The notes below the pieces were generated by a model. It did not search any database and was not told the origin of the DNA. It saw nothing but the letters and a program-made list of their open reading frames with translations. The translations under genes and the position numbers were made by a program. From NCBI RefSeq assembly GCF_002288325.1, contig NZ_CP016780.1, positions 1,302,001-1,366,000 on the forward strand: DNA of 64,000 nucleotides, read 5' to 3'. This document shows, piece after piece, positions 9,622 through 26,850 of this stretch. Origin of the DNA: Candidatus Planktophila lacus. GTDB lineage: Bacteria > Actinomycetota > Actinomycetes > Nanopelagicales > Nanopelagicaceae. How positions within the stretch are numbered: position 1 is the stretch's first letter; every line of letters begins with the position of its first letter.

Positions 9622-9622
9622 A

Positions 9623-10453
9623 TCAAGCAGAGACAATCTTTAGCGCATCCTGTGCGGATGTGCCTTTATGTAACATCGCCATCAACGCTTGGGTCATCTT
9701 CGCTGGTTTTGGATGAGCGATGATATTTCGACCGTAAACAATTCCCGCTGCGCCTTGCTTTAGAACTTCGGCGGTGCGATTTAGCAGTTCCTCGTCAGAG
9801 ACACGTCCACCACCACGAACTAGAACTGGTACTGAACCCGCAGTTTGAATGACGTGGTGATAATCAGCTGCGACATCTGTTGGATCTGCCTTAATTACAT
9901 CCGCGCCTAATTCAATTGCCTGTCGCACAAGTGGGACAACTTTTTCAAGCTCACCATCTGATGTGTATCCGCCGGTTGTTGCATCCTTCATAACTAGAGG
10001 CTCAACCATTAGCGGCATTCCGTAATGCTCGCACTGCGCCTTAAGAGTCATGATGTTGCGAATACAAGAATCGCGAAGTTCGGGGCGGCCCGGCAGATCA
10101 AGTAGGTTCACAACCACAATCGCGGCATCAAGACGTACTGCCTGCAGCACCGCATCTTCAAGCAAAATACTAAAGAGATGATCTGGAATTACCTTGCCAT
10201 AAACGTTTGCAACATCTGTGCGCAACACCAGCGCCGGTTTATTTGGCTTCGGATTGTTCTGTAGGTGCTTGGCTTGCCCTAGGGTCAATTGAATTGCATC
10301 AGGTGCAGCATCAATCAAGGTATTAACTGCAGCGCCCATATCTTCAATGCCTGCAAGGAATGTTCCTTCACCAAAGAAGCCATGGTCAACTGCGATATCG
10401 AAGCAGCGGCCATTGTTAAATAAGCGCTTTAGGCGAATTGATACATCAGACAT
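9623..10453 (-). CDS. Class I aldolase of the DeoC/LsrF/FBA-I group
   Basis: 276-aa TIM-barrel Schiff-base aldolase related to archaeal-type class I fructose-bisphosphate aldolase, LsrF and DeoC/LacD proteins. The barrel starts with FDIAVDHGFFGEG. The probable Schiff-base lysine is in GADVIKADPTD, and the phosphate-binding end has VPVLVRGGGRVS and IVYGRNIIAHPKP. First gene of the aldolase - oxidoreductase - ribokinase operon. The start ATG at 10453 has a GGAG about 8-9 nt upstream. It probably splits or condenses a phosphorylated keto-sugar made by its neighbours; the exact substrate is open. Confidence 0.75.
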   Translation of the reverse strand: MSDVSIRLKRLFNNGRCFDIAVDHGFFGEGTFLAGIEDMGAAVNTLIDAAPDAIQLTLGQAKHLQNNPKPNKPALVLRTDVANVYGKVIPDHLFSILLEDAVLQAVRLDAAIVVVNLLDLPGRPELRDSCIRNIMTLKAQCEHYGMPLMVEPLVMKDATTGGYTSDGELEKVVPLVRQAIELGADVIKADPTDVAADYHHVIQTAGSVPVLVRGGGRVSDEELLNRTAEVLKQGAAGIVYGRNIIAHPKPAKMTQALMAMLHKGTSAQDALKIVSA

Positions 10454-10508
10454 TAAGTGGCTCCATTTTCGCTGGTAATTTCATTAACTCTGCAAGTAGT
10501 CTAGAACC

Positions 10509-11543
10509 ATGTCACAGAGTTCAACCACCCCTTCCAAGCTACCTTCTAATCAATTTGATCACTTTTATCGCGGTGGCAATCGAATCGGCGCCTTACGTCA
10601 CGGCCCCGGAGGACCAATGCGTCCTGAAGAGTGGATCGGTTCGATCACAACTCGTTTTGGTGAAGCAGAGCAAGGGCTTTCACGTTTAAGTGATGGCACT
10701 TTGCTACGCGATGCAATCAAGAACGATTCTGATGGTTGGTTGGGTGCAGATCACGTAAAGAACTTTGGCTTAAGTACAGAAATTTTAATCAAGTTGCTAG
10801 ATCCAGATCAGCGCCTTCCAGTTCATTACCATCCAAATAAAGCCTTTGCGAAAACTCATCTCGGTTTAGATCATGGAAAAACTGAAGCGTGGATTATCTT
10901 AGAAGCGCCAGCCGGTTCTGGAGTTGGACTCGGATTCGCACAGAAACAGAATAAAGAAGATCTACTTAAATTGGTCCGCGCGCAAGATTCTGCGGCACTT
11001 CTTGCATCACTTCGTCGCACCGAAGTTCAAGTTGGCGATGCGGTTTTAGTTCCAGCAGGAGTTGCACATGCAATTGATGCTGGAATATTTGTTTTGGAAC
11101 TACAAGAGCCAACTGATTTATCAGCGCTTCTTGAATGGGAAGGCTTTGCAGTGGATGGAATCAAAGATGGCCATCTCGGTTTAGGTTTTGAAACCGTTAC
11201 CGACGCGCTGCTACTTGATCCTTTAACTGATTCTGAATTTGATTCACTAATTACTCATAACGTCTTTTCGGGTGGGGCGCTTCGTTCGGTTCTGCCTCTG
11301 AAATCAGATGGGTACTTCCGAGCGCATTTAGCGCCTGGTTCTGGTGATTTCCAAGCTGGCTTTGCCGTCGCACTTGTCTTAGATGGATCAGGATCAATTT
11401 CCTTCGCTAACGCACCAGAAATGGGGATAACTAAAGGCGATGCCATTGTGATTCCACATAGCGCTGGTGCGTTTGCTTTCAGTGGAGCGAACGCGATTGT
11501 CTGTCGCCCACCACTTGCAGAACTGGCGCGAGTTGCGCCGTAA
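10509..11543 (+). CDS. Mannose-6-phosphate isomerase-like cupin protein
   Basis: 344-aa protein of the class I (ManA-type) phosphomannose isomerase family, Zn-dependent aldose-ketose isomerases. The first cupin holds HYHPNKAFAKTHLG followed by KTEAWIIL; the second metal-site region is VLVPAGVAHAID. C-terminal cupin strands carry GDAIVIPHSAGAF. It is shorter than E. coli ManA (~390 aa), and the N-terminus contains RHGPGGPMRPEEWIGS, which resembles other actinobacterial ManA-like proteins. TAGTCT at 10497-10502 lies 6 nt before the ATG and there is no Shine-Dalgarno, so a leaderless start is likely. It precedes an FGGY kinase by 14 bp. Confidence 0.8.
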   Translation: MSQSSTTPSKLPSNQFDHFYRGGNRIGALRHGPGGPMRPEEWIGSITTRFGEAEQGLSRLSDGTLLRDAIKNDSDGWLGADHVKNFGLSTEILIKLLDPDQRLPVHYHPNKAFAKTHLGLDHGKTEAWIILEAPAGSGVGLGFAQKQNKEDLLKLVRAQDSAALLASLRRTEVQVGDAVLVPAGVAHAIDAGIFVLELQEPTDLSALLEWEGFAVDGIKDGHLGLGFETVTDALLLDPLTDSEFDSLITHNVFSGGALRSVLPLKSDGYFRAHLAPGSGDFQAGFAVALVLDGSGSISFANAPEMGITKGDAIVIPHSAGAFAFSGANAIVCRPPLAELARVAP

Positions 11544-11557
11544 GCGTCACGATTAAA

Positions 11558-12871
11558 ATGTCTCAACAAATTTTGATCGGTGTCGATATCGGCACATCTC
11601 GAATCAAGGCAGTTGCAACAGATATTGATTTAAAGGTAATCGCTGAGTACGCCGAGCCAACTCCTTGGCGCCATGAGAAAAACAATAGCGATATAGATAT
11701 GTTGCTCTTGGCTAAGACGGTCACCGCAGTTGCAGCGAAAGCGGCAGAACTTGCTGGTGGGAAAGTCGCAGCAATTGGTTTCACCGGCTTTAGCGAAACC
11801 GGAGTTTTGATTGATGGTGCTGGTAAGCCACTGGCACCTGGTTTAGCGTGGCACGATCCGCGTGGCTTAACTGAACCAATCATCAAAGAGCTTGGCGATT
11901 ACGAATTTAGAGCGCGCGCTGGTGCACTGCTAAATGAAATTGCATCGATTTCAAAAACGCTCTGGTTAAATCAGGAATACCCTGAAACGCGCAAAGCCAA
12001 ACACTTTCTCTCAGCGCCAGAATGGGTTGCTTACTGCCTTGGCGCCGATTTGGTAAATGAACTATCCCTAGTTAGCAGAACTGGTTTCTACGATGTCGAA
12101 GCGCGTGCGCCTTGGCGTGAAGCAATGTCGCTAGTTGGCGGTGGCGAAGATTTCTTGGCTCGTTTAGTTGTGGCAGGTGAACCAATAGGAGTTGTTAACA
12201 ACGATGCACCAGAAGTTTTGCGTGGTGCAGTAATTACTATTGCCGGACATGATCATTTCACTGCTGCGTATTACTGCGGTGCGATAAATGAAGGATCGCT
12301 CTTTGATTCGATGGGAACCGCTGAGGCTTTACTACGCACATTTAAGAAGCCGTTATCTCGAGATGCCATCGCTGAATTAGCGGCAGCCAACGTTGGATTA
12401 AGCGCTTCGGTAATTGCAGATCACTTCACATTGCTCGGCGCGCTACCAACTGGCCTAACGCTAGAAAGAGTTTGTTCACTCGTCGGCGTTTCAACGCGCG
12501 ATGAGAAGATTGCACTTGGTGAAGTAGCGTTAAAGATAGATCCGAAAGCTAGTGCCCTACGGGTTAACAATGATTATCACGGCCTCTCGGTCACAAACCT
12601 TGATGATGCCGTCTCACCTGCTGCGCTCTTTCGAGCAACTGCTGAACATTTAGTTGAAGAGTCAGCAAATATGGTCTCGCTGATTGAAAAATTCACCGGC
12701 CAAGCAACGGATGTAGTTATTGCTGGGGGTTGGGTTAAAAATCCAATGATCGCAAGCGCGAAGACGAAACAATTTGGAAGTTACAAAGTCTCTGATGCCA
12801 CCGAGGCTGGTGCAACAGGCGCCGCTGAGTTCGCGGGAATTGCTGCAGGAATACTTAAGTTAAGAAGTTAG
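11558..12871 (+). CDS. FGGY-family carbohydrate kinase
   Basis: 437-aa sugar kinase of the gluconokinase/xylulokinase superfamily. The N-terminal phosphate-1 motif is GVDIGTSRIKA, followed by a GFTGFSETGVL sugar-site block, APGLAWHDPRG, and a central AGHDHFTAAY with the family catalytic Asp. Motifs of the C-terminal ATP domain are GSLFDSMGTAEALLR and VVIAGGWVKNP. It is somewhat shorter than classical FGGY kinases (~480-500 aa) but both lobes are complete. It lies just downstream of the ManA-like gene and abuts the convergent glucokinase-like gene (stop codons adjacent at 12871/12872). The substrate is undetermined. Confidence 0.8.
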   Translation: MSQQILIGVDIGTSRIKAVATDIDLKVIAEYAEPTPWRHEKNNSDIDMLLLAKTVTAVAAKAAELAGGKVAAIGFTGFSETGVLIDGAGKPLAPGLAWHDPRGLTEPIIKELGDYEFRARAGALLNEIASISKTLWLNQEYPETRKAKHFLSAPEWVAYCLGADLVNELSLVSRTGFYDVEARAPWREAMSLVGGGEDFLARLVVAGEPIGVVNNDAPEVLRGAVITIAGHDHFTAAYYCGAINEGSLFDSMGTAEALLRTFKKPLSRDAIAELAAANVGLSASVIADHFTLLGALPTGLTLERVCSLVGVSTRDEKIALGEVALKIDPKASALRVNNDYHGLSVTNLDDAVSPAALFRATAEHLVEESANMVSLIEKFTGQATDVVIAGGWVKNPMIASAKTKQFGSYKVSDATEAGATGAAEFAGIAAGILKLRS

Positions 12872-13692: not shown

Positions 13693-14355
13693 TTATTTCC
13701 CGCGTTGGCCGTAGATATTTTGATAGCGGTCAAACAACTTATCGACGCTCTCTTGATCAATTAACTGCAAGGTCCCGAGAGATTTTGCAATCCAAGTTGT
13801 CTTTGCTACATCTTCACACATCACTGCAGATTTAACAGCTGCTGTTGCATCTTTACCGATTGAAAAGACGCCATGGTTCTTCATTATTACTGCTGAAGAA
13901 CGGTGTCCCGTAAGGGTTTCAACAACACCTTTGCCAATCGCATCGTTGCCGATTAGTGCAAATGGACCGAGAGGGATTTCGCCACCAAATTCGTCAGCCA
14001 TCGCAGTTAGGGCACATGGAATTGCGCTGTGTACCGCGCTCCACGCAGCAGCGTAATTTGAGTGAGTGTGCACAACTCCGCCCACATCTTTCATATGGCG
14101 ATAGATATATGCATGGGTGTGGGTATCGCTCGATGGAGATAATTCACCCTCTAAAACATTTCCATCAAGATCACAAATAATCATTTGTGAGGGTTTCAAA
14201 TCTTCGTAACTAACTCCACTTGGTTTAATCATGAAGCGTTTGCCATCTGACATGCGCTCTGAGACATTGCCGGCGGTCCAGGCAACTAATCCGTAACGTT
14301 GTAGATCAATATTTAGTTTGCAGACTTTTACGCGCAACTCTTTCTTGGAACTCAT
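13693..14355 (-). CDS. araD: L-ribulose-5-phosphate 4-epimerase (class II aldolase family)
   Basis: 220-aa Zn enzyme that converts L-ribulose 5-phosphate to D-xylulose 5-phosphate. Motifs are TAGNVSER near residue 30, IKPSGVSYEDL, SSDTHTHAYIYR, the Zn histidines in VVHTHSNYAAAW (~95-97), and a third histidine in IMKNHGVF. Length and motifs match AraD/UlaF/SgbE. Its ATG shares one base with the stop of the upstream ribulokinase (TAATG), with GGAAGG upstream as a good Shine-Dalgarno. Together they form the lower arabinose pathway. No arabinose isomerase (araA) is present in the window. Confidence 0.9.
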   Translation of the reverse strand: MSSKKELRVKVCKLNIDLQRYGLVAWTAGNVSERMSDGKRFMIKPSGVSYEDLKPSQMIICDLDGNVLEGELSPSSDTHTHAYIYRHMKDVGGVVHTHSNYAAAWSAVHSAIPCALTAMADEFGGEIPLGPFALIGNDAIGKGVVETLTGHRSSAVIMKNHGVFSIGKDATAAVKSAVMCEDVAKTTWIAKSLGTLQLIDQESVDKLFDRYQNIYGQRGK

Positions 14356-16040
14356 TACTTTCCTTCCGTAGATGTGAGCGCACGATCTCGGATCGCACGA
14401 AGTGAATGCATCGCACCGTTGTGGCCGAAGCTTTCATAAAGATCGTTGTAGTGCTTGTAAAGATCGTTATAGACCTTGGCGTTTGCCGGGTTTGGCTGAT
14501 AACGCTCATCTGCCACTCCGCCCATCGCAGCAGCGGCAGTTTGTACATCTTTATATGCACCCGCGGCAACAGCTGCGTGAATTGCCGAACCAAGCGCTGG
14601 ACCTTGGGCAGATTTAATAATTGTTATTGGCATATCCAATACATCGGCATAGATCTGCATAACGAAACTATTTTTAATGAGCCCGCCAGCGGCGATAAAT
14701 TCTTTAACGGGTACGCCTGATTCATTAAAGGTCTGCACGATTTTGCGCGCACCATATGCCGTTGATTCAACGATTGCGCGATAGATCTCTTCCGGCTTGG
14801 TTGAAAGAGTTAAACCCATAATCAAGCCAGAAAGTTGATGATCAACCAGAGTTGAGCGGTTGCCGCTCTGCCAATCCAAGGCAACTAGGCCATGTGCGCC
14901 AACTGGTTGCGCACTTGCTAGTTGAGATAGATAGGTATGTATATCAACGCCTTTTGCTGCTGCAGCTGCGGTGTATTCAGCCGGCGCATAGTTATTGGCA
15001 AACCATCCGAAGATATCGCCGACTCCTGATTGGCCAGCTTCGTAACCAAGTGCGCCATCGATAATTCCGCCATCGACTACGCCGCACATGCCTGGAACTT
15101 CTGCGAATTCTTCAGAGACCATTACATGGCAGGTTGAAGTTCCCATGATCGCAACCATCTGTCCTGGGTTAACCGCATTTGCCGCGGCAGAAGTTACATG
15201 AGCATCCACGTTACCAACTGCAACTGCAATTCCTTCAGGAAGGCCAGTCCATTTCGCTGCTTCAGCGGTTAACGTTCCAGCACATGCACCTAGCGCACCA
15301 AGTTCATGCTCTAATTTTTCTGCAATAAATTTTTCAAACTTTGGATTGAGCGCCGCTAGATATTCTTTTGTTGGGTACTTTCCATCTTGATAAATACCTT
15401 TATATCCCGCAGTGCAGATATTGCGCACATACTTGCCGCAGAGTTGCCAGATAATCCAGTCGGCCGCTTCTACCCATTTATCCATCGCTTGATAAATTTC
15501 AGGTGCTTCTTCTAAAACTTGTAGCGCTTTAGCAAATTCCCATTCTGAAGAAATTTTGCCGCCGTAGCGAGATATCCAAGGTTCTTTGCGCGCATGGGCA
15601 AGTTCATTTATGCGATCGGCATGTGGCTGCGCAGAATGGTGCTTCCACAATTTAACGAAGGCATGTGGGTTCTTAGAAAATTCTGGAAGTTCGCAGAGCG
15701 GGGTTCCATCGCTCTTTACTGGAAGAACTGTGCAAGCTGTGAAATCTGTGGTTATCCCGATAACAGATTTAGGATCGATTCCAGATTCCTTAAGAACTGC
15801 AGGAACGGTAACTTTTAAAACATCAACATAATCAGATGGAACTTGTAGCGCCCAATCCGGTGGCAACTTTGCACCGGATGTTGGGAGTTTCTCCTCGATT
15901 ACAGCGTGCGGGTACTCATAAACCGCTGTTGCAATTTCGGCGCCATCAGAGACGCGCACCAATAAAGCGCGACCAGAAAGCGTTCCGTAATCAACGCCGA
16001 TTACATATTTATTACTTAAATCGCTAGTTAAATCTGGCAC
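14355..16040 (-). CDS. araB: Ribulokinase
   Basis: 561-aa FGGY kinase with full ribulokinase length (E. coli AraB 566 aa), phosphorylating L-ribulose (and possibly D-ribulose or ribitol). Features are the N-terminal GVDYGTLSGRALLV, GITTDFTACTVLPV, the long LWKHHSAQPHADRIN segment characteristic of AraB, ATP-site MGTSTCHVMV, GQSGVGDIFGWF, and C-terminal AAGGLIKNSFVMQ. Starts with GTG at 16040. It is divergent from the ApnO-like gene, sharing an 88-bp intergenic region, and co-directional with araD. Confidence 0.93.
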   Translation of the reverse strand: MPDLTSDLSNKYVIGVDYGTLSGRALLVRVSDGAEIATAVYEYPHAVIEEKLPTSGAKLPPDWALQVPSDYVDVLKVTVPAVLKESGIDPKSVIGITTDFTACTVLPVKSDGTPLCELPEFSKNPHAFVKLWKHHSAQPHADRINELAHARKEPWISRYGGKISSEWEFAKALQVLEEAPEIYQAMDKWVEAADWIIWQLCGKYVRNICTAGYKGIYQDGKYPTKEYLAALNPKFEKFIAEKLEHELGALGACAGTLTAEAAKWTGLPEGIAVAVGNVDAHVTSAAANAVNPGQMVAIMGTSTCHVMVSEEFAEVPGMCGVVDGGIIDGALGYEAGQSGVGDIFGWFANNYAPAEYTAAAAAKGVDIHTYLSQLASAQPVGAHGLVALDWQSGNRSTLVDHQLSGLIMGLTLSTKPEEIYRAIVESTAYGARKIVQTFNESGVPVKEFIAAGGLIKNSFVMQIYADVLDMPITIIKSAQGPALGSAIHAAVAAGAYKDVQTAAAAMGGVADERYQPNPANAKVYNDLYKHYNDLYESFGHNGAMHSLRAIRDRALTSTEGK

Positions 16041-16128
16041 TCGCAGAGCCTACCGCAGGGGTTGCGGCTGCTGCTAGAGTTGAAAAAGTTAATTAATAAA
16101 ATACACAAAAAATATATGAGGAGTTTTC

Positions 16129-16974
16129 ATGACTGTCATTACGATTTTAGGCGCCGGCGGCAAAATGGGTAATCGTGTTACCCAGCCACTTCTTGATACA
16201 AAGAAGTACGAGCTTCGCTTCGTAGAAAAGTCTGAAGCTGGGCAAGCGCGAATCCGCGAAGCCGGAAATACAGTTATGGAATTAGATGACGCCCTTAAGG
16301 GAACAGATGTAGTTATCTTTACAACCCCTGATGCGTTAGTGCGCCAAATTTCTGATGAAGTTGTTCCAAAATTAGATCCTGGTACAAAGATTCTCTTCCT
16401 TGACCCAGCAGCAATCGCGGCAGATCGCGTCAAGCATCGCGCAGATATCAGTTGCTTTGTCTGCCATCCAACTCATCCACCGGTATTTAGTTTGCTTGGT
16501 GAGACAGATCCTGCAGCGCGTCGCGATTATTGGGGTGGCGGCCTTGCAACTCAAGCTCTGGTATTTGCAATTGCCTGGGGAACTGAAGAAGAAGCAGATC
16601 TCGTCGAAACAATTGCAACTGAAATGTTTGCGCCAATTAGCGCAAGCCACCGTATTACCGTTCAGCAGATGGCACTTCTTGAGCCGGCTCTTAGCGAGAC
16701 TCTAATTAACGGTTGCGTCGAAGTAATTACTCAAGGTTTGCAGAAGGTTATCGATCTTGGAGTTCCTGAGGCTGCTGCCAAAGATTTCTGCATGGGCCAT
16801 TTGCAGATCAGCATCGCGCTCTTGTTTGAAGAGTTGAATTGGAAGCTATCTGATGGCGCACTTATGGCGCTCAAGAACGCTCAAGGTTCACTCTTTCGCG
16901 ATGATTGGGATGCCATCTTTAAGCCCGAAAATGTGCTCGCTAGCGTTAAGCAGATAACTGGCGGAGATAAGTAA
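16129..16974 (+). CDS. apnO: PGDH_C-family oxidoreductase, likely D-apionate oxidoisomerase (ApnO-like)
   Basis: 281 aa: an N-terminal Rossmann domain (ITILGAGGKMGNRV) plus a helical C-terminal domain of the phosphogluconate-dehydrogenase-C type (HITVQQMALLEPALSET region). This architecture matches ApnO, which oxidises and isomerises D-apionate to 3-oxo-isoapionate. The conserved CHPTHPPVF loop (~115-123) is a probable active-site element. A strong Shine-Dalgarno (GAGGAG at 16118-16123) precedes the ATG. It begins a four-gene run, with a TIM-barrel isomerase 4 bp downstream, an SDR, and an ApnL-like lactonase. The pairing with the lactonase is the main reason for this substrate call. Without it one would only say 6-phosphogluconate-dehydrogenase-like protein. 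Confidence 0.6.
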   Translation: MTVITILGAGGKMGNRVTQPLLDTKKYELRFVEKSEAGQARIREAGNTVMELDDALKGTDVVIFTTPDALVRQISDEVVPKLDPGTKILFLDPAAIAADRVKHRADISCFVCHPTHPPVFSLLGETDPAARRDYWGGGLATQALVFAIAWGTEEEADLVETIATEMFAPISASHRITVQQMALLEPALSETLINGCVEVITQGLQKVIDLGVPEAAAKDFCMGHLQISIALLFEELNWKLSDGALMALKNAQGSLFRDDWDAIFKPENVLASVKQITGGDK

Positions 16975-16978
16975 TTAA

Positions 16979-17791
16979 ATGAAGCTCGGAGTCTCCAGTT
17001 TCACCTTTCCCTGGGCGATCGGCGGGATTGAGCCTGAGCATCCAGTTGTGATGAGCGCCTTTGAACTATTGGAGCGCGCCCACGATTTAAAAGCTGATGT
17101 GCTGCAGATCGCCGATAACTTGCCGATTGGCGAGCTTGCAGAAGCCGAACTTCTTAAGTTAAAGGCACAAGCCGATAGTTATGCAATCGCTCTAGAAGTT
17201 GGAACTCGCGGAAATAAGAGCGAGAACATTGAGAATTTTCTACGCATCGCCCAATTACTGAGTTCACCGATTCTGCGAGTTGTCATTGATAGCAAAGGCC
17301 ACGAACCCGCAATCCCCGAAATAGTTCAACTACTTAAACCTTTCGAAGCTAAATTTAAAGAAGCGAATATCAAGTTAGCGATCGAAAACCACGATCGCTT
17401 AACCTGCGCAGAATTTAACGAGATTATTGATCAAGTTGGCTCTGATTGGGTCGGAATTTGTCTTGACACTGTTAACTCACTTGGCGCAGTTGAAGCTCCC
17501 AATACAGTTATTCCTGCACTGGCTCCGCGGGCGATCAACGTGCATATGAAAGATTTTGAAATTGTTCGAACCAACGGGCAGATGGGATTTACCGTTCGAG
17601 GAACAGCGCTCGGCGAAGGCCGGTTAGATATTGCTGAGGTCATCGCCGCTGTAGGTGGAACAAAGCGCGAGATCACCGCAGTTATCGAACTTTGGACTCC
17701 ACGCCAGGATAGTTATGAAGCAACCGTTGCTTTAGAGAACGAATGGGCAGAGATCAGCGTTACTAATTTACGGAAATCGATAGGATCTTAA
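16979..17791 (+). CDS. Sugar phosphate isomerase/epimerase-like TIM-barrel protein
   Basis: 270-aa AP-endonuclease-2-like / xylose-isomerase-like TIM barrel. It begins MKLGVSSFTFPWAIGG and carries barrel-strand ends typical of metal-dependent epimerases: AIENHDR (~120-127), VGICLDTVNSLG with the Asp, INVHMKDFEI with a His and Lys, and AVIELWTPR with a Glu. It is placed between the ApnO-like and SDR genes with 3-4 bp gaps, so it is certainly co-transcribed. In this setting it may isomerise, or process by retro-Claisen chemistry, the 3-oxo sugar acid produced by its neighbours. The reaction is not known. Confidence 0.7.
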   Translation: MKLGVSSFTFPWAIGGIEPEHPVVMSAFELLERAHDLKADVLQIADNLPIGELAEAELLKLKAQADSYAIALEVGTRGNKSENIENFLRIAQLLSSPILRVVIDSKGHEPAIPEIVQLLKPFEAKFKEANIKLAIENHDRLTCAEFNEIIDQVGSDWVGICLDTVNSLGAVEAPNTVIPALAPRAINVHMKDFEIVRTNGQMGFTVRGTALGEGRLDIAEVIAAVGGTKREITAVIELWTPRQDSYEATVALENEWAEISVTNLRKSIGS

Positions 17792-17793
17792 CT

Positions 17794-18510
17794 ATGGAGT
17801 TAACGGGCTATAACGTTGTCGTAACCGGCGGAAGCGGCGGCATCGGTTCAGCTTTAATTACTGGCCTTATCCAATCTGGCGCAAACGTTCATAACCTTGA
17901 TCTGCAAAGCCCAGCCCCTTCAGATGCAAAATTTTATAAGACTGATTTAACTGATGAGAATTCTGTAAAGGCATCTCTCTCTTCTATCAACTCAATTGAT
18001 GCGCTAATTGTTTGCGCAGGCGTGCAGTTGGTTGGCGCAGATTCCAAGATTGCAGATGTTTCACTCGATACCTGGCAGAAAACTATTGATATAAATATGA
18101 CTGGTGCTTTTTTATCGGTTAAGCATGCAATGCCTGGGTTGATTCAATCTGGAAGAGGTTCAGTTATTTTGATCGGTTCTCCAACAGGTATGACGATGGA
18201 AGGCGCGGGCTACACCGCATATGGCGCATCTAAAGCCGGAATGATGGGGCTTTCGCGCATCATCGCCGTTGATTACAAAGAGCAAGGTGTTCGATCCAAC
18301 GTGGTTGTTCCCGGCACCATGTCGACACCTTTGATTCAAAAGATTTGGGATGACCCAGAGAAAGGCCCTGATCTAATTCGCCGAACACCGCTTGGACGAA
18401 TGGGCAAGCCAAGTGATTTGGTTGGTTTAGTTAATTGGTTGGTCTCTGATCAATCTTCATTTGCAACCGGGGCAATGTACGCAGTCGATGGCGGAATGAC
18501 TGCGCGATGA
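17794..18510 (+). CDS. Short-chain dehydrogenase/reductase
   Basis: 238-aa classical SDR. The NAD(P) motif TGGSGGIGSAL is near residue 12, NNAG is replaced by VCAGVQ, the catalytic Ser is in ILIGSPTGM, and YTAYGASKAG provides the YxxxK pair (~Y144/K148). C-terminal FATGAMYAVDGGM is typical of sugar-alcohol or 3-oxoacyl-type SDRs. The acidic residue after the second strand (HNLDLQSP) favours NAD over NADP. It overlaps the lactonase-like gene by 4 bp (18507-18510). It likely oxidises the free sugar or lactol feeding the lactonase, or reduces a keto product; the substrate is unproven. Confidence 0.8.
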   Translation: MELTGYNVVVTGGSGGIGSALITGLIQSGANVHNLDLQSPAPSDAKFYKTDLTDENSVKASLSSINSIDALIVCAGVQLVGADSKIADVSLDTWQKTIDINMTGAFLSVKHAMPGLIQSGRGSVILIGSPTGMTMEGAGYTAYGASKAGMMGLSRIIAVDYKEQGVRSNVVVPGTMSTPLIQKIWDDPEKGPDLIRRTPLGRMGKPSDLVGLVNWLVSDQSSFATGAMYAVDGGMTAR

Positions 18511-20288
18511 GTAAGAATTTCTGGCCAGATACCCAACGGGTTGAGCACGCCGGATTTACAGTTGATATCGCACGCGCTGCTATAAGAAACGTTACTTACC
18601 AAGGAGCGCAAATAATTGATCTGCTCTACACCGCAATTCGTCCTTGGGATTGGTCAACTCTTGATCCCGATGAACACAGTGAAGTTGTTGAGATATCAGG
18701 AGAAAATTGTCTCGTAACAATTACCGATTTATTTGCAGGCTCGATTCAGGGAAAGACAGTCTTAACTCTGCAACCTAATGGGAAATTTCTAATTGATTAT
18801 CAACTAACCGGTTTGGGGAAATTTGAAATCCAACGCTGGGGAGTTTGTTTCTGTCTACACACTGGCGACTGGATGGGTTCAACAGTTAGCGCCAGCGGCA
18901 ATACCTATTCATTGCTTAAAGAGATATCACCACAACGGGTTGTCGATGGCGTAACGCAAGGGCTCTTCCCAGCCAGCAACGATATGCACTTCGTTGCCCC
19001 GGATAAGAGATCTTTAAAAGTCCTATCAACTGGCAAGGTTTTAGAAGCGGAAGATCAACGCAACTGGACCGATAACACCTACAAAATTTATAGCGGTTCG
19101 TTAGCCGAAGCCCGTCCTTTTGTAATTGAAAAAGGTATGAAATGGGAACAACGAGTTGAATTTGAAGTGACTCCGCCGGCAACTTCTATCCCTGATGGAT
19201 CAAAGATCATTGCAAGAGATATTCCTTCACTACCGCGCATTGGCGTGCAATTTAATGGCGAGCCTTTACTGCCGAGCGATGACCTCGAAAAGGCGCTATT
19301 TATTCTCGATATCGACCACATCCGCGTAAATGAAGAGTCGCTAACTGCCCAAAAGATCGCAACGATAAGTAAGAGCGGCCTTGCCCTTGAAGCAGCGCTG
19401 CTCTCATCAAATGATGGGGCTGATCTTGTTAGAGAAGTTGAACATTTAAGCGCCCGAGTTCCGGCAGGTTCACGTTTATTGATTCATCGCCAAGGTCGTC
19501 AAATTGTTCAAGAATCAGATCTGCCAAAGAACAAGACTTTAAATTCTTACATTCCTGGTAGCGATGCTTACCTAGTTGATCTACATCGCGAGAAGTTTGA
19601 ATTTGGTGACGCGGTTTCATATTCAATGGTTCCAACAGTTCATTCATCTGATCCAGAAACCATCTTTAAAACTCTCGACACCCAGAAAGAGTCGATTGAG
19701 TTTGTTCAAAAATTTATAGCGTCACAAGTAAGTGTTTCTCCAATTACCTTTTCTACTCGCGGAAATCCTGAGACCGGACATCTCCGTGAAAACCGAATTA
19801 ACTTTGCCCAGCCCGGGATGGCAGAACAGATCAAAGAGTTATCTGCCGCCGCTTGGACTTTAGGTTCTGTATTTGCACTTGCGAGCGCAGGTGCATATTC
19901 GGGAACATGGCACGAACTATTTGGTGAACACGGCCTTATTTACAATGAAGGTTCGGCAATTAAGTTCTCACCAACTTTCCACGCACTTTCAGCGCTAGGT
20001 GCGCATCACGCACATGAAATTACAATTGCTACTTCGCTAGATGGTTCATGGGTGGCTTTCGAAGACCGTGAATCACGAAAGATGGTTGTGGCTTCACAGC
20101 GACCATGGGTTGTTGAAATTACTCCCAAGGTTTTGGCTGGGTATAAATCGATTCAAAGCCTGCACGCCAATGAATGCGAAAAGGCGAGCCAGATCATGGA
20201 TTGGTGGTCATATGCTGAGATAAATCCACTTCTCGGCGATATTCCGCTATCAATCACCCCTTTTGAGATCCTTCTCCTGCGTGGCTAA
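18507..20288 (+). CDS. apnL: D-apionate lactonase-like protein (ApnL family)
   Basis: 593-aa protein resembling ApnL, which hydrolyses D-apionolactone to D-apionate. Recognisable landmarks are an N-terminal beta-rich region with AIRPWDWSTLDP, the block ISPQRVVDG followed by FPASNDMHF (~140-160), the hallmark EAEDQRNWTDNTYKIY (~180-195), and a second-domain segment ITFSTRGNPETG followed by AAWTLGSVFAL. The C-terminus is a small beta domain ending in ITPFEILLLR. Its ATG overlaps the SDR stop. An ApnO-like gene in the same operon fits the published apionate pathway. I matched this from memory of the family, so an alignment is needed for certainty. No signal peptide, hence cytosolic. Confidence 0.65.
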   Translation: MSKNFWPDTQRVEHAGFTVDIARAAIRNVTYQGAQIIDLLYTAIRPWDWSTLDPDEHSEVVEISGENCLVTITDLFAGSIQGKTVLTLQPNGKFLIDYQLTGLGKFEIQRWGVCFCLHTGDWMGSTVSASGNTYSLLKEISPQRVVDGVTQGLFPASNDMHFVAPDKRSLKVLSTGKVLEAEDQRNWTDNTYKIYSGSLAEARPFVIEKGMKWEQRVEFEVTPPATSIPDGSKIIARDIPSLPRIGVQFNGEPLLPSDDLEKALFILDIDHIRVNEESLTAQKIATISKSGLALEAALLSSNDGADLVREVEHLSARVPAGSRLLIHRQGRQIVQESDLPKNKTLNSYIPGSDAYLVDLHREKFEFGDAVSYSMVPTVHSSDPETIFKTLDTQKESIEFVQKFIASQVSVSPITFSTRGNPETGHLRENRINFAQPGMAEQIKELSAAAWTLGSVFALASAGAYSGTWHELFGEHGLIYNEGSAIKFSPTFHALSALGAHHAHEITIATSLDGSWVAFEDRESRKMVVASQRPWVVEITPKVLAGYKSIQSLHANECEKASQIMDWWSYAEINPLLGDIPLSITPFEILLLRG

Positions 20289-20425: not shown

Positions 20426-21493
20426 ATGGCAAAGCTTTTCTCACGCCGCACTGCAGCAGTTGTTGCTGTAGCCGCAGCGTCAATGCTTGTGCTTTCTGCA
20501 TGTTCAAATAGCGACAGCGGAAGCGGAGACACTGTAAAGGTCTCACTAATTACAAAAGATCAGTCAAACCCATTCTTCGTTGCGATGATCAAGGGTGCAA
20601 CTGAGAAGGCCGAAGCTCTCGGTGTAGAACTAACTGTTACATCTGGTGTAGATGAGTCAGATTACGCAGGACAGATCACAGCGATTGAAAACGCAATCTC
20701 TGCAAAGCACGCTGGTATCTTGATCGTTCCAGTATCAACAGAAGTTAACGCAGCGATCACAAAGGCACGCGAAGCAGGCCTTTACATCATCGCTCTTGAC
20801 ACAGCACCAGATCCTGCTGACATCGTAGATATCACTTTCGCAACAGATAACCGCGAAGCTGGTCTTCTAATCGGTCAGTGGACAGCTGCAAAGCTTGCTG
20901 GCAAGAAGGCAACAATTGCACTTCTCGACATCTTCGATGACCGCATTGTGTCTGTTGACTACATGCGCGATAACGGATTCCTTGCAGGTATGGGAATTGA
21001 TGTTAAGGATCCAAACAAGATGGGTGACGAAGCCAAGACTGGCAAGTACTCAGGCGGCGACTATGAGATCGTTGGAAACGTAGCAACAGGTGCTAACGAA
21101 GACGGCGGCCGTACAGGTATGGAACAACTTCTTGCTAAGAACAAGAAGATCAACGTTGTTTACACAATCAACGAGCCAACAGCAATCGGTGCATGTGCTG
21201 CAGCAGCTGCTGCTGGTATCAAGCTCGATGTAATGGTTTCTGTTGACGGTGGCGGCGCTGGTATCAACGCTGTTAAGTCAGGTTGCATCAACGCAACTTC
21301 ACAGCAGTACCCATTGTTGATGGCTGACCTTGGCGTCCAAGCTATCTACGACATCGTGAAGAACGGTACAAAGCCAACTACTTCAGAAGGCCTTGACTTC
21401 TTCAACACCGGCGTTAAGTTGATTACTGATGACCCACAAGAGGGTGTCCCATCAGAGACAACTGAATACGGTCTAGCAAACGCTTGGGGTTAA
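20426..21493 (+). CDS. Sugar ABC transporter substrate-binding lipoprotein (RbsB type)
   Basis: 355-aa periplasmic-binding-protein type 1 (Peripla_BP_4) lipoprotein that captures a sugar outside the membrane. The signal peptide MAKLFSRRTAAVVAVAA ends in a lipobox LSAC (residues 23-26, acylated Cys26). The mature part has the family order: LITKDQSNPFF, LIVPVSTEVNAAI, IALDTAPD, a central TGANEDGGRTGME, and VVYTINEPTAIGA. Codon choice is strikingly uniform (ACA Thr, GCA/GCT Ala, AAG Lys), as in very highly expressed genes. It is followed by a hairpin terminator and then permease and ATPase genes. Placed right after the ApnO/ApnL-like operon, it probably imports the pathway substrate; known apiose-binding proteins belong to this family. 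Confidence 0.92.
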   Translation: MAKLFSRRTAAVVAVAAASMLVLSACSNSDSGSGDTVKVSLITKDQSNPFFVAMIKGATEKAEALGVELTVTSGVDESDYAGQITAIENAISAKHAGILIVPVSTEVNAAITKAREAGLYIIALDTAPDPADIVDITFATDNREAGLLIGQWTAAKLAGKKATIALLDIFDDRIVSVDYMRDNGFLAGMGIDVKDPNKMGDEAKTGKYSGGDYEIVGNVATGANEDGGRTGMEQLLAKNKKINVVYTINEPTAIGACAAAAAAGIKLDVMVSVDGGGAGINAVKSGCINATSQQYPLLMADLGVQAIYDIVKNGTKPTTSEGLDFFNTGVKLITDDPQEGVPSETTEYGLANAWG

Positions 21494-21500
21494 TCCCAGT

Positions 21501-21521
21501 TCTTTAGTGAATAACTAAAGA
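21501..21521 (+). repeat. Small hairpin after the binding-protein gene
   Basis: TCTTTAGT - 5 nt - ACTAAAGA, a perfect 8-bp stem just downstream of the stop codon and directly before the larger terminator. It may protect the 3' end of the abundant binding-protein mRNA. Confidence 0.5.
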
Positions 21522-21528
21522 AGAGTGT

Positions 21529-21566
21529 TTAAAGAGGGCGGCTGCTTCGGCAGTCGCCCTCTTTAA
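21529..21566 (+). terminator. Strong hairpin terminator/attenuator between binding protein and permease
   Basis: A 17-bp stem (TTAAAGAGGGCGGCTGC paired with its complement, one G-U pair) closes on a TTCG tetraloop. There is no long U-tract, which is common in Actinobacteria. It separates the abundant binding-protein message from the permease/ATPase part of the operon and should lower expression of the latter. Confidence 0.8.
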
Positions 21567-21659
21567 CACAATCTTGAAAGTGAATATATAAAGAAATAGA
21601 TTTGAATAAGTTTCAGCAAAGTAAGTTAGAGTTCAAATAAAGTTTCGAAAGGACCAAAA

Positions 21660-22700
21660 GTGAGTCAAGAGACGACAAACTACGATGCGGCGTCCGAATT
21701 CCAGGACCGTGCAACGTTTAGTCAGAAAATGCAGGCGGTGCTCCATAAGTATCCGTGGCTTAGCTCCACAATGGTGCTTGTTGTAGCATCAATTACCTTT
21801 AGTTTTTTCAATGAAAACTTCTTAACACCGTCTAACTTCTCACTCATCTTGCAGCAAGTAGCGATCGTTGGCGCTGTTGCAACTGGTCAGACTTTAATTA
21901 TTCTTACCGCGGGCATCGATCTTTCATGTGGTGCGATCGCGATCTTCTCTTCAATGGCGATGGCTAAACTTGTACAAGGAACTCCTGCAGTTGAAGGCGA
22001 TGGCCTTTCAATCTGGATCGCGTTCCCAGCAGGTCTACTCGTAGGTGCATTTGCCGGAGCAATTAATGGCTTCCTAGTTACCAAGGTTAAGTTGCCACCA
22101 TTTATCGTTACCTTGGGAACTTTCAATATCTTCCTTGCATTCACACTCACCTTCACAAAGGGAACTGTTCCTGCAAATGAAATGCCGCCGTTCCTACTAA
22201 CCCTTGGAAACTATGTAAATCTCGGACCTTTCCGAGTTACTACTGGTGTTCTCTTCATGATCGCTATGTATATCGTCTTAGCTTTTGCTCTGCGTTACAC
22301 ATCATGGGGCCGTCACGTATACGCAGTTGGTGATGACATTGATGCAGCTCGCTTGGCTGGTATCTCAGTTAACCGCGTTCTCATGAGCGTGTATGTAGTC
22401 GCTGGAGTCACTTTTGCACTTGCCGCCTGGATTGTTATCGGCCGCGTAACTGTTGCTAGCCCGAATACGGGTGGAGATCTAAACCTCGATGCGATCACTG
22501 CGGTGGTTATCGGCGGTACTTCTCTATTCGGCGGCCGCGGCACAATCTTCGGATCCCTAATCGGAGCGGTAATCGTGGGTGTTTTCCGTAACGGCCTAAC
22601 ACTTGCTGGCGTGGATCTGTACTTCCAGCTGATGGCAATCGGAATCCTGATTATCTTCGCTGTCTCTGTCGACCAATGGATCAGAAAGGCACGCAAATGA
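21660..22700 (+). CDS. Sugar ABC transporter permease (RbsC/FrcC type)
   Basis: 346-aa BPD_transp_2 family inner-membrane permease forming the translocation channel of a ribose/fructose-type importer. About 8-10 hydrophobic helices start near residue 35 (WLSSTMVLVVASITF). The family hallmarks GQTLIILTAGIDLS (~80-93), PPFIVTLGTF and AVVIGGTSLFGGRGT (EAA-like contact loop, ~290-305) are all present. Starts with GTG; GAAAGGA lies 8-9 nt upstream. The stop overlaps the ATPase ATG by 4 bp. Confidence 0.92.
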   Translation: MSQETTNYDAASEFQDRATFSQKMQAVLHKYPWLSSTMVLVVASITFSFFNENFLTPSNFSLILQQVAIVGAVATGQTLIILTAGIDLSCGAIAIFSSMAMAKLVQGTPAVEGDGLSIWIAFPAGLLVGAFAGAINGFLVTKVKLPPFIVTLGTFNIFLAFTLTFTKGTVPANEMPPFLLTLGNYVNLGPFRVTTGVLFMIAMYIVLAFALRYTSWGRHVYAVGDDIDAARLAGISVNRVLMSVYVVAGVTFALAAWIVIGRVTVASPNTGGDLNLDAITAVVIGGTSLFGGRGTIFGSLIGAVIVGVFRNGLTLAGVDLYFQLMAIGILIIFAVSVDQWIRKARK

Positions 22701-23491
22701 GTAAGTCACCAATTCTTCAAGCAGTTGGAGTTACCAAGGCTTATGGTCGCGTTATCGCACTTGATGGCGCCGATCTAGAACTATTTCCTGGTGAAGTTCT
22801 CGCAGTAGTAGGCGATAACGGTGCTGGTAAATCAACTCTGATCAAATGTCTTTCAGGCGCTGAAGTACCTGACCACGGTCAGATAATTCTCGAAGGTCAA
22901 GAAATGTCATTTAAGCGACCACAAGATGGGCGCCATGCCGGAATCGAAACTGTGTATCAGACACTTGCTGTTGCACCAGCTCTCGATATCGCATCCAACC
23001 TCTTCCTTGGCCGCGAAATGCGCAAGGCAGGTCCGTTGGGATCTGTTCTTCGTATGATCGATAGCTCTGGAATGCGCAAGGCAGCGAAAGAACATATCTC
23101 TGCTCTTGGTATCGGAACAATTCAGAATATTTCACAAGCCGTTGAAACTCTTTCAGGTGGTCAGCGTCAGGCTGTTGCAGTTGCTCGCGCCGCTGCATTC
23201 GGTCAGAAGTTGATTATCCTCGATGAACCAACAGCTGCACTCGGAGTTCGTGAATCACGTCAGGTTCTAAAACTTATTGAGTCACTACGTGAACGCGGTA
23301 TGCCAGTTATCTTGATTTCACACAACATGCCACAGGTATTTGAAGTAGCAGATCGCATCCAGGTTCAACGCCTCGGAAAGCGCGCTGCTGTTGTTACTCC
23401 AAAGTCCCACACCATGAACGATGTCGTTGCAATCATGACTGGCGCGATGACAGTAGATAAGAAAGACCAAGCGCTTTCTTCAGTACGTTAA
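22697..23491 (+). CDS. Sugar ABC transporter ATP-binding protein (single domain)
   Basis: 264-aa ATPase energising the importer above. Walker A is GDNGAGKST (~40-48), the Q-loop region contains ETVYQTL, the signature is LSGGQRQAVAVARA, Walker B is LIILDEPTAALG, and the H-loop is ILISHNMPQV. RbsA/XylG proteins carry two such domains (~500 aa). This one has a single domain as in FrcA-type systems, so it must homodimerise. The ATG at 22697 was chosen because it gives an ATGA overlap with the permease stop; an in-frame upstream ATG at 22676 lies inside the permease. Confidence 0.93.
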   Translation: MSKSPILQAVGVTKAYGRVIALDGADLELFPGEVLAVVGDNGAGKSTLIKCLSGAEVPDHGQIILEGQEMSFKRPQDGRHAGIETVYQTLAVAPALDIASNLFLGREMRKAGPLGSVLRMIDSSGMRKAAKEHISALGIGTIQNISQAVETLSGGQRQAVAVARAAAFGQKLIILDEPTAALGVRESRQVLKLIESLRERGMPVILISHNMPQVFEVADRIQVQRLGKRAAVVTPKSHTMNDVVAIMTGAMTVDKKDQALSSVR

Positions 23492-23523: not shown

Positions 23524-25017
23524 ATGGCCACTCCGGTTCGTATTGAATCGGATGTGGTCATTGTTGGTTCTGGGATAGGTGGCGCCACGACCGCCTTTGG
23601 CTTGGCGCAAAAGGGCGTTAAAACGCTGGTTTTAGAGCGCGGCGAACGAATGCCACGTGAGCCTGAAAACTGGTCGCCATCTGAGATCTTTATGAAGACT
23701 CGCTACAAGCCAAATGAAAAATGGGTTGATGAAAAGGGAAATGAGTTTGTTCCCGGCGTTCATTACTTCGTTGGTGGAAATAGCAAGGTTTACGGTGCAT
23801 CTCTGCCACGCTTTAGCCGTTATGACTTTGGCGTAATCAAACATCAGGAAGGTATTTCGCCCGCCTGGCCATTTACCTACGATGATCTAGAACCTTTCTA
23901 TTACAAAGCCGAAGAGTTGTACCGCGTCCATGGCGATGCGCAGAATATTTATGGCAACAACCGCACGACTCCATTTCCATACCCTGCAATGAAACATGAG
24001 CCATACGTTGAAGAACTAGGCAAACGCTTAACCAAGGCAGGTGTGCACCCGCATTCAAACTCAATGGGTATTGATCTAGGGCCTGGCGGAAAATGTATTC
24101 GCTGCAAAACTTGCGATGGCTTTGTCTGTAAATTAGATGCTAAGAGCGATGCTGAAGTAAATGCGCTCAATCCGGCGATTGCAACTGGTCATGTAACTCT
24201 CATGACTTCTGTCCAAGTTAACCGCATTGTGCTTAACGCTGATGGAAAGTCAGTCAGCCATCTTGAAGCAACAAGGGGCGATGAGGCGCTCGAGATTTAC
24301 GGCAAAAACTTTGTAATCGCAGCGGGCTCTGTTAACACCGCAGCGTTGCTTCTTCGTTCTGGCGTTGCTAACTCATCTGATCAAGTTGGTCGTAACTTTA
24401 TGATGCATAACAACAGCCATATCGCAGCCGTGGATATGCGCCACAAGAACGATGTCACTTTCCAGAAGACCCTTTCCTTCACCGATTGGTATCTAGATGG
24501 TGGCAAGGGTTACCCACTTGGCGCCGTGCAGTTAATTGGCAAGGTGCAAGGCATCATGATGAAATCTTTTGCTAAACGAGTTCCACTGCCGCTACTTAAC
24601 TTGGTCTCTGATCACAGCGTGGAATTTGTGGTGATGTCTGAGGACCTACCGCACCCAGATAACCGCGTAACTATTGATAAAAACGGGGCGATTAAGATCG
24701 TTCGTAAATCAGTTGGGATGAAGACCCACTTTGAACTTCTGCGCCGGGCCAAGAAAGTACTTCGCAAAACGGGTTATCAGGCAATCTTTAGACAACCTTT
24801 TGATATTTCCATGAACTCGCATCAATGTGGAACAACCGTTGCTGGCAACGATCCGCGCACCAGTGTTGTCGATGGTTATTGCCGCAGCCACGATCACCAC
24901 AATCTTTACTTAATTGATGGCGGATTCTTCCCATCATCTGCAGCAATGAACCCAGCGCTGACAATTGCCGCACAGGCGTTGCGAGTTGTTGAGCAATCAG
25001 ATCTAGCTAAAGTTTAA
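23524..25017 (+). CDS. GMC-family FAD-dependent oxidoreductase
   Basis: 497-aa glucose-methanol-choline oxidoreductase family protein that oxidises an alcohol group of a sugar or cyclitol using FAD. FAD motif VVIVGSGIGGATTA (~12-25), VLERGERMP, the FVGGNSKVYGASLPR flavin loop, a cysteine-rich CIRCKTCDGFVCKLDAKSD segment (~196-214), and a C-terminal active-site region with NSHQCGTTVAG and LYLIDGGFFPSSAAMNP. No signal peptide. It follows the ABC ATPase by 32 bp, so it is probably in the transporter operon and may be the first oxidation step for the imported sugar. Its stop overlaps the convergent AroE-like stop by 4 bp. Confidence 0.85.
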   Translation: MATPVRIESDVVIVGSGIGGATTAFGLAQKGVKTLVLERGERMPREPENWSPSEIFMKTRYKPNEKWVDEKGNEFVPGVHYFVGGNSKVYGASLPRFSRYDFGVIKHQEGISPAWPFTYDDLEPFYYKAEELYRVHGDAQNIYGNNRTTPFPYPAMKHEPYVEELGKRLTKAGVHPHSNSMGIDLGPGGKCIRCKTCDGFVCKLDAKSDAEVNALNPAIATGHVTLMTSVQVNRIVLNADGKSVSHLEATRGDEALEIYGKNFVIAAGSVNTAALLLRSGVANSSDQVGRNFMMHNNSHIAAVDMRHKNDVTFQKTLSFTDWYLDGGKGYPLGAVQLIGKVQGIMMKSFAKRVPLPLLNLVSDHSVEFVVMSEDLPHPDNRVTIDKNGAIKIVRKSVGMKTHFELLRRAKKVLRKTGYQAIFRQPFDISMNSHQCGTTVAGNDPRTSVVDGYCRSHDHHNLYLIDGGFFPSSAAMNPALTIAAQALRVVEQSDLAKV

Positions 25018-25877
25018 GCAAGACCCAATACGCGCAGTAGCTCGTCATTTAAATCCTTGGCATCAACATCTACGCCGGTCCAATATTTAATTCCGATAAC
25101 TGCTTGATTTACAACCATTCCTAAGCCTTGCAGAGTTGTTGCTCCGCGCTTACCGGCTTCATCCAAGAAGTAAGTCTGTGGTGGATTAACGATTACATCT
25201 GCAGCCAACATTCCGGGGCGGATCGAATCGAAATCAATATCCTGCTTGCCTTCAGTATTAACCATGCCCATTGAGGTTGAGTTGATTACAACTTCAGCAT
25301 CGGCCGGAATTGAATAACTCTTATTCCATTCCACAAATTCTGCAGTGGCTGAAGTCTTATCGTTGAGCAGCTCCGTTAACTCTTCACCGCGAGCGCGGGA
25401 ACGGTTTACGACATAGAACTTAGTCGCACCAGCGAGTGCGAGTTCAACGGCAATTGCGCGCGCTGCACCGCCTGCGCCAAGCAGAACTATTGTCTTTCCG
25501 GTGGCTGGCGTGATTTCTAGAAATGATTTTAAAAATCCTTTGCCATCTGTGTTTTCACCGATCAACTTGCCGTCACGATTAACCGCACAGTTAACAGCGC
25601 CGATTAAAGCAGCTGACTCCCCCAAACCATCCAAGTGCTTAATGACTTCGACCTTGTGAGGGATAGAGCAGTTAAAGCCCTTCCAATTCATCGCTCTGGC
25701 GCCCTTTACAGCCGCTTCCAATTGGTCTGGGTTAACTTCACAATTTACGTAGCGATAGTGCAGGTTATTGGCCTTGTACGAGGCCTCAACCATGGCAACT
25801 GTTGGGTTGGAGTCCGATCCTTGTGAAAAGCTTCCAGTTAATTCATGTCGGAAAGATCCGCCGATATCCATGGTCAT
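25014..25877 (-). CDS. Shikimate/quinate dehydrogenase family protein (AroE-like)
   Basis: 287-aa AroE-family dehydrogenase. N-terminal substrate domain with FNCSIPHKVEV (catalytic Lys), GAVNCAVN and GENTDGKGFL (catalytic Asp); NADP domain VLLGAGGAARAIA; the cofactor loop VVNRSRARGEEL has the Arg pair expected for NADP. C-terminal GLGMVVNQAVIGI matches the family. It lies alone on the minus strand within a catabolic region, divergent from the IolE-like gene by 34 bp, away from other aro genes. It may be the housekeeping AroE or a quinate/shikimate catabolic paralogue; sequence inspection cannot separate these. Confidence 0.85.
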   Translation of the reverse strand: MTMDIGGSFRHELTGSFSQGSDSNPTVAMVEASYKANNLHYRYVNCEVNPDQLEAAVKGARAMNWKGFNCSIPHKVEVIKHLDGLGESAALIGAVNCAVNRDGKLIGENTDGKGFLKSFLEITPATGKTIVLLGAGGAARAIAVELALAGATKFYVVNRSRARGEELTELLNDKTSATAEFVEWNKSYSIPADAEVVINSTSMGMVNTEGKQDIDFDSIRPGMLAADVIVNPPQTYFLDEAGKRGATTLQGLGMVVNQAVIGIKYWTGVDVDAKDLNDELLRVLGLA

Positions 25878-25911
25878 GTTCAGACCTTACCTTGCAAGTT
25901 ATGATCAGCCA

Positions 25912-26814
25912 ATGGCTACTCCATTCTTACAACGCATCGCATCCGCACCTATTTCATGGGGAATCTGTGAAGTACCGGGTTGGGGCGCGATGTTGCCCAC
26001 TAAGCGTGTGCTCTCAGAGATGACCAGTCTTGGGCTACCTGCAACCGAACTCGGCGCACCAGGTTTCTTCTCTGATGACTCTGCAGAGCTCAAGGATCAG
26101 CTAGCAGAATTTAACATGTCGATGATCGGTGGCTTTACACCAGTTGTGTTGCATGACAGGTCACAAGAAAAAGCAACAATTGAAATGGCGCTCACAACAA
26201 GTAAGAAGTTCCAAGAGATCGGTGCAACTCACTTTGTTTCATGCCCAGTACAAACTTGGGATTGGGCTAACCCTGAAGAGTTAAGCAAAGATGAAGTAAC
26301 GCAATTCTTTAAGATGCTCGCTGAGGTAGATCAGATTTGTAAAGATCATGGCCTCGTACAAGTGGTTCACCCACATTTGCAAACAGTTGTTGAGACTAAA
26401 AAAGATATTGATATGGTGGTCGATAACTCTGATGTTATGTGGTGCCTAGATACCGGTCACATGACTATCGGCGGACAAGACACCGTTGAGTTCGCAAAGA
26501 AATACGCCAGTCGCGTAGGTCACGTTCACCTTAAAGATGTAAATATGAAATCTGTTCCACCAGTTCTATCGCGCCAGCAGAGCATCATGGAAGGTGTGCA
26601 GAAAGGTTTATTTACACCTCTCGGACAAGGCGATGTTCCTATCCTTGAGACCATTCTGGCGCTGGAAGCGGCCGGTTATCAGGGTTGGTATGTCATAGAA
26701 CAAGATGTGGCAATTACCGGAGAAATGCCAGGAATCGGTGAAGGCCCTATCAGCGGAATGAAACAATCTGTAGATTATCTCCACAACGTTGTTGCACCAG
26801 CTTTAGCTAAATAA
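25912..26814 (+). CDS. IolE-like TIM-barrel dehydratase/isomerase
   Basis: 300-aa xylose-isomerase-like TIM barrel closest in appearance to inosose dehydratase IolE, which dehydrates 2-keto-myo-inositol. N-terminal APISWGICEVPGWG and TELGAPGFF are IolE hallmarks; metal-ligand strand ends are VVHPHLQTVVE, WCLDTGHMTIGG, VGHVHLKDVN and WYVIEQD. The start is the ATG at 25912 because homology begins there and TATGAT (25900-25905) lies exactly 6 nt upstream, indicating a leaderless transcript. Upstream in-frame codons overlap the divergent AroE gene. It is followed by an IolG-like dehydrogenase, a natural partner. No iolC/D/B genes are present, so the true substrate may be another cyclitol or keto-sugar. 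Confidence 0.75.
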   Translation: MATPFLQRIASAPISWGICEVPGWGAMLPTKRVLSEMTSLGLPATELGAPGFFSDDSAELKDQLAEFNMSMIGGFTPVVLHDRSQEKATIEMALTTSKKFQEIGATHFVSCPVQTWDWANPEELSKDEVTQFFKMLAEVDQICKDHGLVQVVHPHLQTVVETKKDIDMVVDNSDVMWCLDTGHMTIGGQDTVEFAKKYASRVGHVHLKDVNMKSVPPVLSRQQSIMEGVQKGLFTPLGQGDVPILETILALEAAGYQGWYVIEQDVAITGEMPGIGEGPISGMKQSVDYLHNVVAPALAK

Positions 26815-26850
26815 CAAAGCAATTAAATCTGAGGAAAAAGGGGAGTAAAA

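Follow-up and report, generated by a model that had tools for sequence, protein, structure and literature searches.

A divergent Planktophila operon with an ApnO-type oxidoisomerase: a putative variant of the oxidative D-apiose-type pathway

In the route attributed to Carter and co-workers, 3-oxo-isoapionate reportedly loses CO2 to give L-erythrulose, and a kinase and then an isomerase act on this ketose; the corresponding L-erythrulose branch is defined here by a gene set in which an OiaC-type TIM barrel, ApnO and a Dak kinase are joined by a TPI-like gene, RpiB or both. The Rhizobium type of oxidative D-apiose catabolism, attributed to Carter et al. (2018) and compared here through an annotated locus (L030), comprises ApsD, ApnL, ApnO, OiaK and OiaX.

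The operon described here lies in the single-contig genome (1.38 Mb) of a Planktophila; the window, that is, the whole stretch of DNA analysed, spans 64,000 nt, and all positions are window coordinates unless a locus code (L) or a genome code (G) is given. Four complete open reading frames on the + strand occupy positions 16129-20288, the first three being spaced by 4 and 2 bases and the last two overlapping by 4 bases; they encode an ApnO-like oxidoisomerase (16129-16974; a PGDH_C, KARI-like Rossmann protein matching PF16896 at 8e-48), an OiaC-like TIM barrel (16979-17791; PF01261, 1e-16), an SDR dehydrogenase (17794-18510; matching SDR families) and an ApnL-like protein of 593 residues (18507-20288; NCBIfam D-apionate lactonase, 1.8e-21). 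An earlier note, made on this DNA from its letters, had placed a PGDH_C oxidoreductase, a TIM barrel, an SDR and a 593-residue protein carrying EDQRNWTDNTYKIY in one operon with an RbsB-type ABC importer right after it; the packing and kept order of the four frames and the beginning of the importer at 20426 agree with this description. The order ApnO-TIM-SDR-ApnL recurs, with open frames, in no fewer than six further loci of Planktophila, and dN/dS of the operon genes across Planktophila loci is about 0.01-0.18. The operon is intact and under strong purifying selection, and is neither a chance arrangement nor an artefact. Its distribution is patchy, since an ApnO at least 90% identical occurs in only 5 of about 70 sampled genomes of the same genus, the window's own genome not counted.

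The assignment of the first gene as an ApnO-type protein is convincing and is the firmest part of the case. The protein shares 40% identity with its ApnO-type counterpart in the p42f locus of Rhizobium etli and is matched by PDB 5t57 with 218 bits. Also present in the R. etli locus are oiaX, an ApnL scoring 1049 bits, a Gfo/Idh protein and a four-carbon acid sugar kinase; a marine isolate whose enzyme set corresponds to that locus (lactonase, dehydrogenase, oxidoisomerase, kinase and decarboxylase) grows on D-apiose (PMC11747546). Among the 47 family-invariant residues, defined on twelve other ApnO-type proteins together with the solved relatives PDB 5t57 and 3c24, 43 are kept (GAGGKMG, HPxHP, QxAxLEP and others), the changes being L64F, A65T, A203G and E206K. 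The ApnO tree places the Planktophila sequences on its rhizobial side, as a separate deep branch. The ApnO-like identity proposed in the note for the PGDH_C protein is upheld by the R. etli identity, the invariant residues and the PF16896 match together, and the enzyme is predicted to convert a branched aldonate to a 3-oxo-iso-aldonate with NAD.

The homology of the 593-residue protein to ApnL, as judged from sequence, is real but distant. D-apionate lactonase (NF049900) is its sole family match, at 76 bits, below the curated cut-off of 750; the lack of any Pfam match is uninformative, since no Pfam model matches even the ApnL of R. etli. An hhalign comparison with ApnL gave a full-length relationship (99.9%, 510 columns). 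The segment EDQRNWTDNTYKIY corresponds to residues 182-195 (window 19050-19091), within which all ApnL-like proteins compared have E182, D183, R185, W187, D189, K193 and Y195; of the 55 residues common to other ApnL-like proteins, in an alignment that is uncertain at such distance, 27 are kept, including these seven, E180 and H379, and 28 are changed. The branch of the protein in the tree is about 3 changes per site long, and the lactonase and the SDR are the fastest-evolving genes of the operon, the ApnL-like gene foremost (63-69% identity to more distant Planktophila loci, versus 94-95% for ApnO). Its counterparts in Candidatus Planktophila lacus MMS-21-148 and in IMCC26103 are 96% and 68% identical, respectively. 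The structure model (pLDDT 47.1) is too poor for use, and the mutarotase-like beta domains and GH36/GH97 enzymes returned by a fold search with it were not relied on. Given the score of 76 bits against 750, the long branch and the 28 changed residues, the protein is named ApnL-like rather than ApnL, and is predicted to be an aldonolactonase of a deep, fast-evolving branch. The note's ApnL-like lactonase stands as a relationship, but not as membership of the curated ApnL family; likewise, the alignments that it had proposed gave a good agreement for ApnO, but only 23% identity of the lactonase to R. etli ApnL.

The TIM barrel conserves the putative metal ligands E136, D163, H189 and E237; its structure model (pLDDT 57.7) is too poor for use. 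Its homologues directly adjoin ApnO in Erwinia E602, in Pantoea At-9b and in the actinobacteria G108, G357, G427 and G368. In Erwinia E602, Pantoea At-9b, G108 and G357, a Dak kinase, a TPI-like gene, the TIM barrel and ApnO are found together, while G427 and G368 hold, within about 9 kb, a Dak kinase, RpiB, an OiaC-like TIM barrel, ApnO, an SDR and an ApnL-like gene, with a TPI-like gene additionally present in the G427 run; no match to a Gfo/Idh dehydrogenase was found in either run, and the SBP of the R. etli locus has a 62% identical counterpart in G368. The window SDR is 45% identical to the SDR that these two genomes (L067/L068) carry between their ApnO and ApnL-like genes, and has an insertion and a GSPTG motif in common with it; no Gfo/Idh-type ApsD gene is found inside the operon, and the SDR is in its position. 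Since all four homologues occur together in G427 and G368 beside a kinase-isomerase set fitting L-erythrulose, the TIM barrel is read as a likely OiaC-type 3-oxo-iso-aldonate decarboxylase and the SDR as the likely sugar 1-dehydrogenase replacing the Gfo/Idh ApsD. The note had regarded the SDR and TIM genes as non-standard additions to the pathway, a view that is not sustained, other actinobacteria having homologues of both alongside ApnO and an ApnL-like gene.

We consider it somewhat more probable than not that the four genes form an oxidative pathway of four steps, acting on a branched aldose that is most likely D-apiose or a near analogue. In the proposed scheme, whose substrate and individual reactions we infer, the SDR would oxidise the sugar with NAD to the 1,4-lactone; the ApnL-like protein would open the lactone to the aldonate; ApnO would oxidise C2 and shift a carbon group, in the manner of a reverse ketol-acid reductoisomerase, giving a beta-keto acid, 3-oxo-isoapionate; and the metal-dependent TIM barrel would decarboxylate the latter to a ketotetrose, L-erythrulose. 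Downstream enzymes were sought family by family across the genome: no Dak1-family kinase (LerK of the L-erythrulose branch), no DUF1537/OiaK-family kinase (PF07005, of the OiaK/OiaX branch) and no apiosidase was found. With no PF07005 kinase in the genome, decarboxylation would be the most straightforward fate of the keto acid. By position alone, AraB and an FGGY kinase (11558) are candidate ketose kinases. D-apiose is a plausible substrate. A literature search returned no paper naming both Planktophila and apiose.

Upstream of the operon and divergent from it lie genes for an AraB L-ribulokinase (14355-16040, - strand; TIGR01234, 805 bits against a cut-off of 583; 590 bits to the ribulokinase PDB 3qdk) and an AraD-type L-ribulose-5-phosphate 4-epimerase (13693-14355, - strand; NF005123, 348 bits against a cut-off of 251). 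The araB/apnO intergenic region (16041-16128), examined in the sequence and in an alignment of eight loci, measures 75-88 bp in these loci and contains the blocks GAGCCTACCGCAG and CTGCTAGAGT, conserved despite high synonymous divergence. A -10-like TAGGCT stands six bases ahead of the araB GTG and a -10-like TAGAGT faces the apn operon; we infer that these are promoter elements and that overlapping divergent promoters are conserved in the eight loci, and the operon is probably co-regulated with araBD. The araB start in this region is probably leaderless. That AraB and AraD serve this operon alone was considered and rejected: G002, G003 and G007 have araBD but no such operon, two of them with an apparent araA next to araBD, and an araA is present elsewhere in the window's genome. 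A recombining island made up of the araBD-apn block was also rejected, since synonymous divergence from more distant loci is alike in most genes near the block and only that of the SBP gene is clearly low.

The neighbourhood of araBD raises the alternative that the same chemistry acts on some other sugar, branched or larger, such as a C6 3-C-hydroxymethyl pentose, yielding a pentulose that AraB and AraD would convert to D-xylulose 5-phosphate. This alternative would account for the divergent intergenic region common to araBD and the operon in the eight loci, for the presence of araBD beside the operon in every carrier whose contig spans the region, for the joint loss of both in G030 and for the lack of a Dak kinase for a tetrulose; it would also fit the fast evolution of the lactonase and SDR, and the loss by the lactonase of half of the residues common to ApnL-like proteins. 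However, by their scores AraB and AraD are ordinary arabinose enzymes, araA is present elsewhere in the genome, araBD also occur without the operon, and what G030 lost resembles a single deletion, so that we regard this alternative as rather unlikely.

It is also unlikely, in our judgement, that the TIM barrel is a sugar isomerase/epimerase and not a decarboxylase, the operon then mixing two routes. In pairwise identity the protein is closer to homologues adjacent to transketolases (38%) than to those adjacent to ApnO (31%), and its ENH motif matches homologues found beside two-subunit transketolases rather than the ApnO-adjacent ones; indeed, it is 36-38% identical to, and has ENH in common with, a group from Shinella, Sinorhizobium and Rhizobium, a TIM-Dak-TktA-TktB order is found in Salipiger, and such homologues beside transketolases and Dak kinases probably serve a non-oxidative apiose route. 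Against this, the tree places the TIM barrel with the ApnO-adjacent homologues (support 86/93, on long branches), ApnO and TIM adjoin each other in the other operons having both, and no other enzyme of the operon would use the ApnO product in a genome devoid of PF07005 kinases. The decarboxylase assignment is for these reasons preferred.

The ABC importer that follows the operon is probably not specific to the operon's sugar, and the link that the note had drawn between them is not borne out. Its SBP is 27% identical to, and not an orthologue of, the SBP of the R. etli apiose locus; SBP orthologues, 51-71% identical, are found in actinobacteria lacking an ApnO match; and in G030 araB, araD and the operon are gone while the importer is kept. 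In G031 and G080 the orthologues are accompanied by the same genes for a permease, an ATPase and a GMC protein, and in G080 also by the PMI-like and FGGY genes, so that the importer belongs to this older neighbourhood. On the same grounds a dedicated apiose importer was rejected, and a single apiose uptake-and-catabolism unit formed by the operon and the importer (20426-23491) is very improbable, even though the two adjoin on the same strand, in an order kept in the loci covering both, and no terminator-like site was found between them. At the deletion scar in G030 (L015:9195-9497), a C-terminal lactonase remnant of 101 residues is left between the importer and a ROK gene. In comparisons with more distant loci, the SBP gene (20426-21493) shows a synonymous divergence of 0.19-0.33 of sites, versus mostly 0.55-0.75 in its neighbours, perhaps owing to the codon bias of very high expression.

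The flanks of this region (8485-12871 and 23524-27837) carry genes for a Gfo/Idh protein, a DhnA-type aldolase, a PMI-like protein, an FGGY kinase, a GMC oxidoreductase, an IolE-like and an IolG-like protein, which, together with the operon, suggests a sugar-catabolism island. Elsewhere in the same genome there is a second ApnL-like operon (L010:2982-11581, corresponding to about 1,159,981-1,168,580 of G000:C1, minus strand), composed of an ApsD-like Gfo/Idh gene (44% identical to that of R. etli), an ApnL-like gene (260 bits), an SDR, an MtnA-like isomerase and a RhaD-like aldolase/SDR fusion, with a divergent RuBisCO-like protein. It resembles the window operon in having an ApnL-like protein and a sugar dehydrogenase, but has neither ApnO nor an OiaC-like gene. 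Among 120 relatives, its ApnL-like gene is complete only in G000, G058 and G006, all three of which carry the window operon.

The actinobacteria of Planktophila (acI), whose genomes are very small, rank among the most numerous bacteria of fresh water; a dedicated branched-sugar pathway in a few such lineages would point to a specific niche of plant-derived carbon, and the grouping of an SDR with OiaC-type TIM, ApnO and ApnL-like genes in actinobacteria gives a gene set testable as an SDR-based apiose pathway. It is quite improbable that the operon is a new oxidoisomerase pathway for a branched sugar other than D-apiose, with a re-specialised lactonase and SDR and the ketose handed to AraB/AraD; if it were, the araBD-apn divergon would be one pathway feeding the pentose phosphate route. 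The best reading of the locus is a divergent oxidative D-apiose-type pathway, a variant of the known gene set with a putative substrate and a putative exit step.

Compared with the known systems, the locus resembles the Rhizobium type in its ApnO, in having a lactonase of the ApnL family, in the sugar ABC genes nearby and in the dehydrogenase-lactonase-oxidoisomerase logic; it differs in using an SDR instead of the Gfo/Idh ApsD, in having no OiaK-family kinase, and in its distant lactonase and non-orthologous importer. With the L-erythrulose branch (Erwinia E602, Pantoea At-9b, G108, G357, G427, G368) it shares the joint presence of TIM and ApnO, to which G427 and G368 likewise add an SDR and an ApnL-like gene. 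Unlike that branch, the Planktophila operon runs in the order ApnO-TIM-SDR-ApnL without Dak, TPI-like or RpiB genes, and is represented by separate deep branches in all three trees (TIM, ApnO and ApnL).
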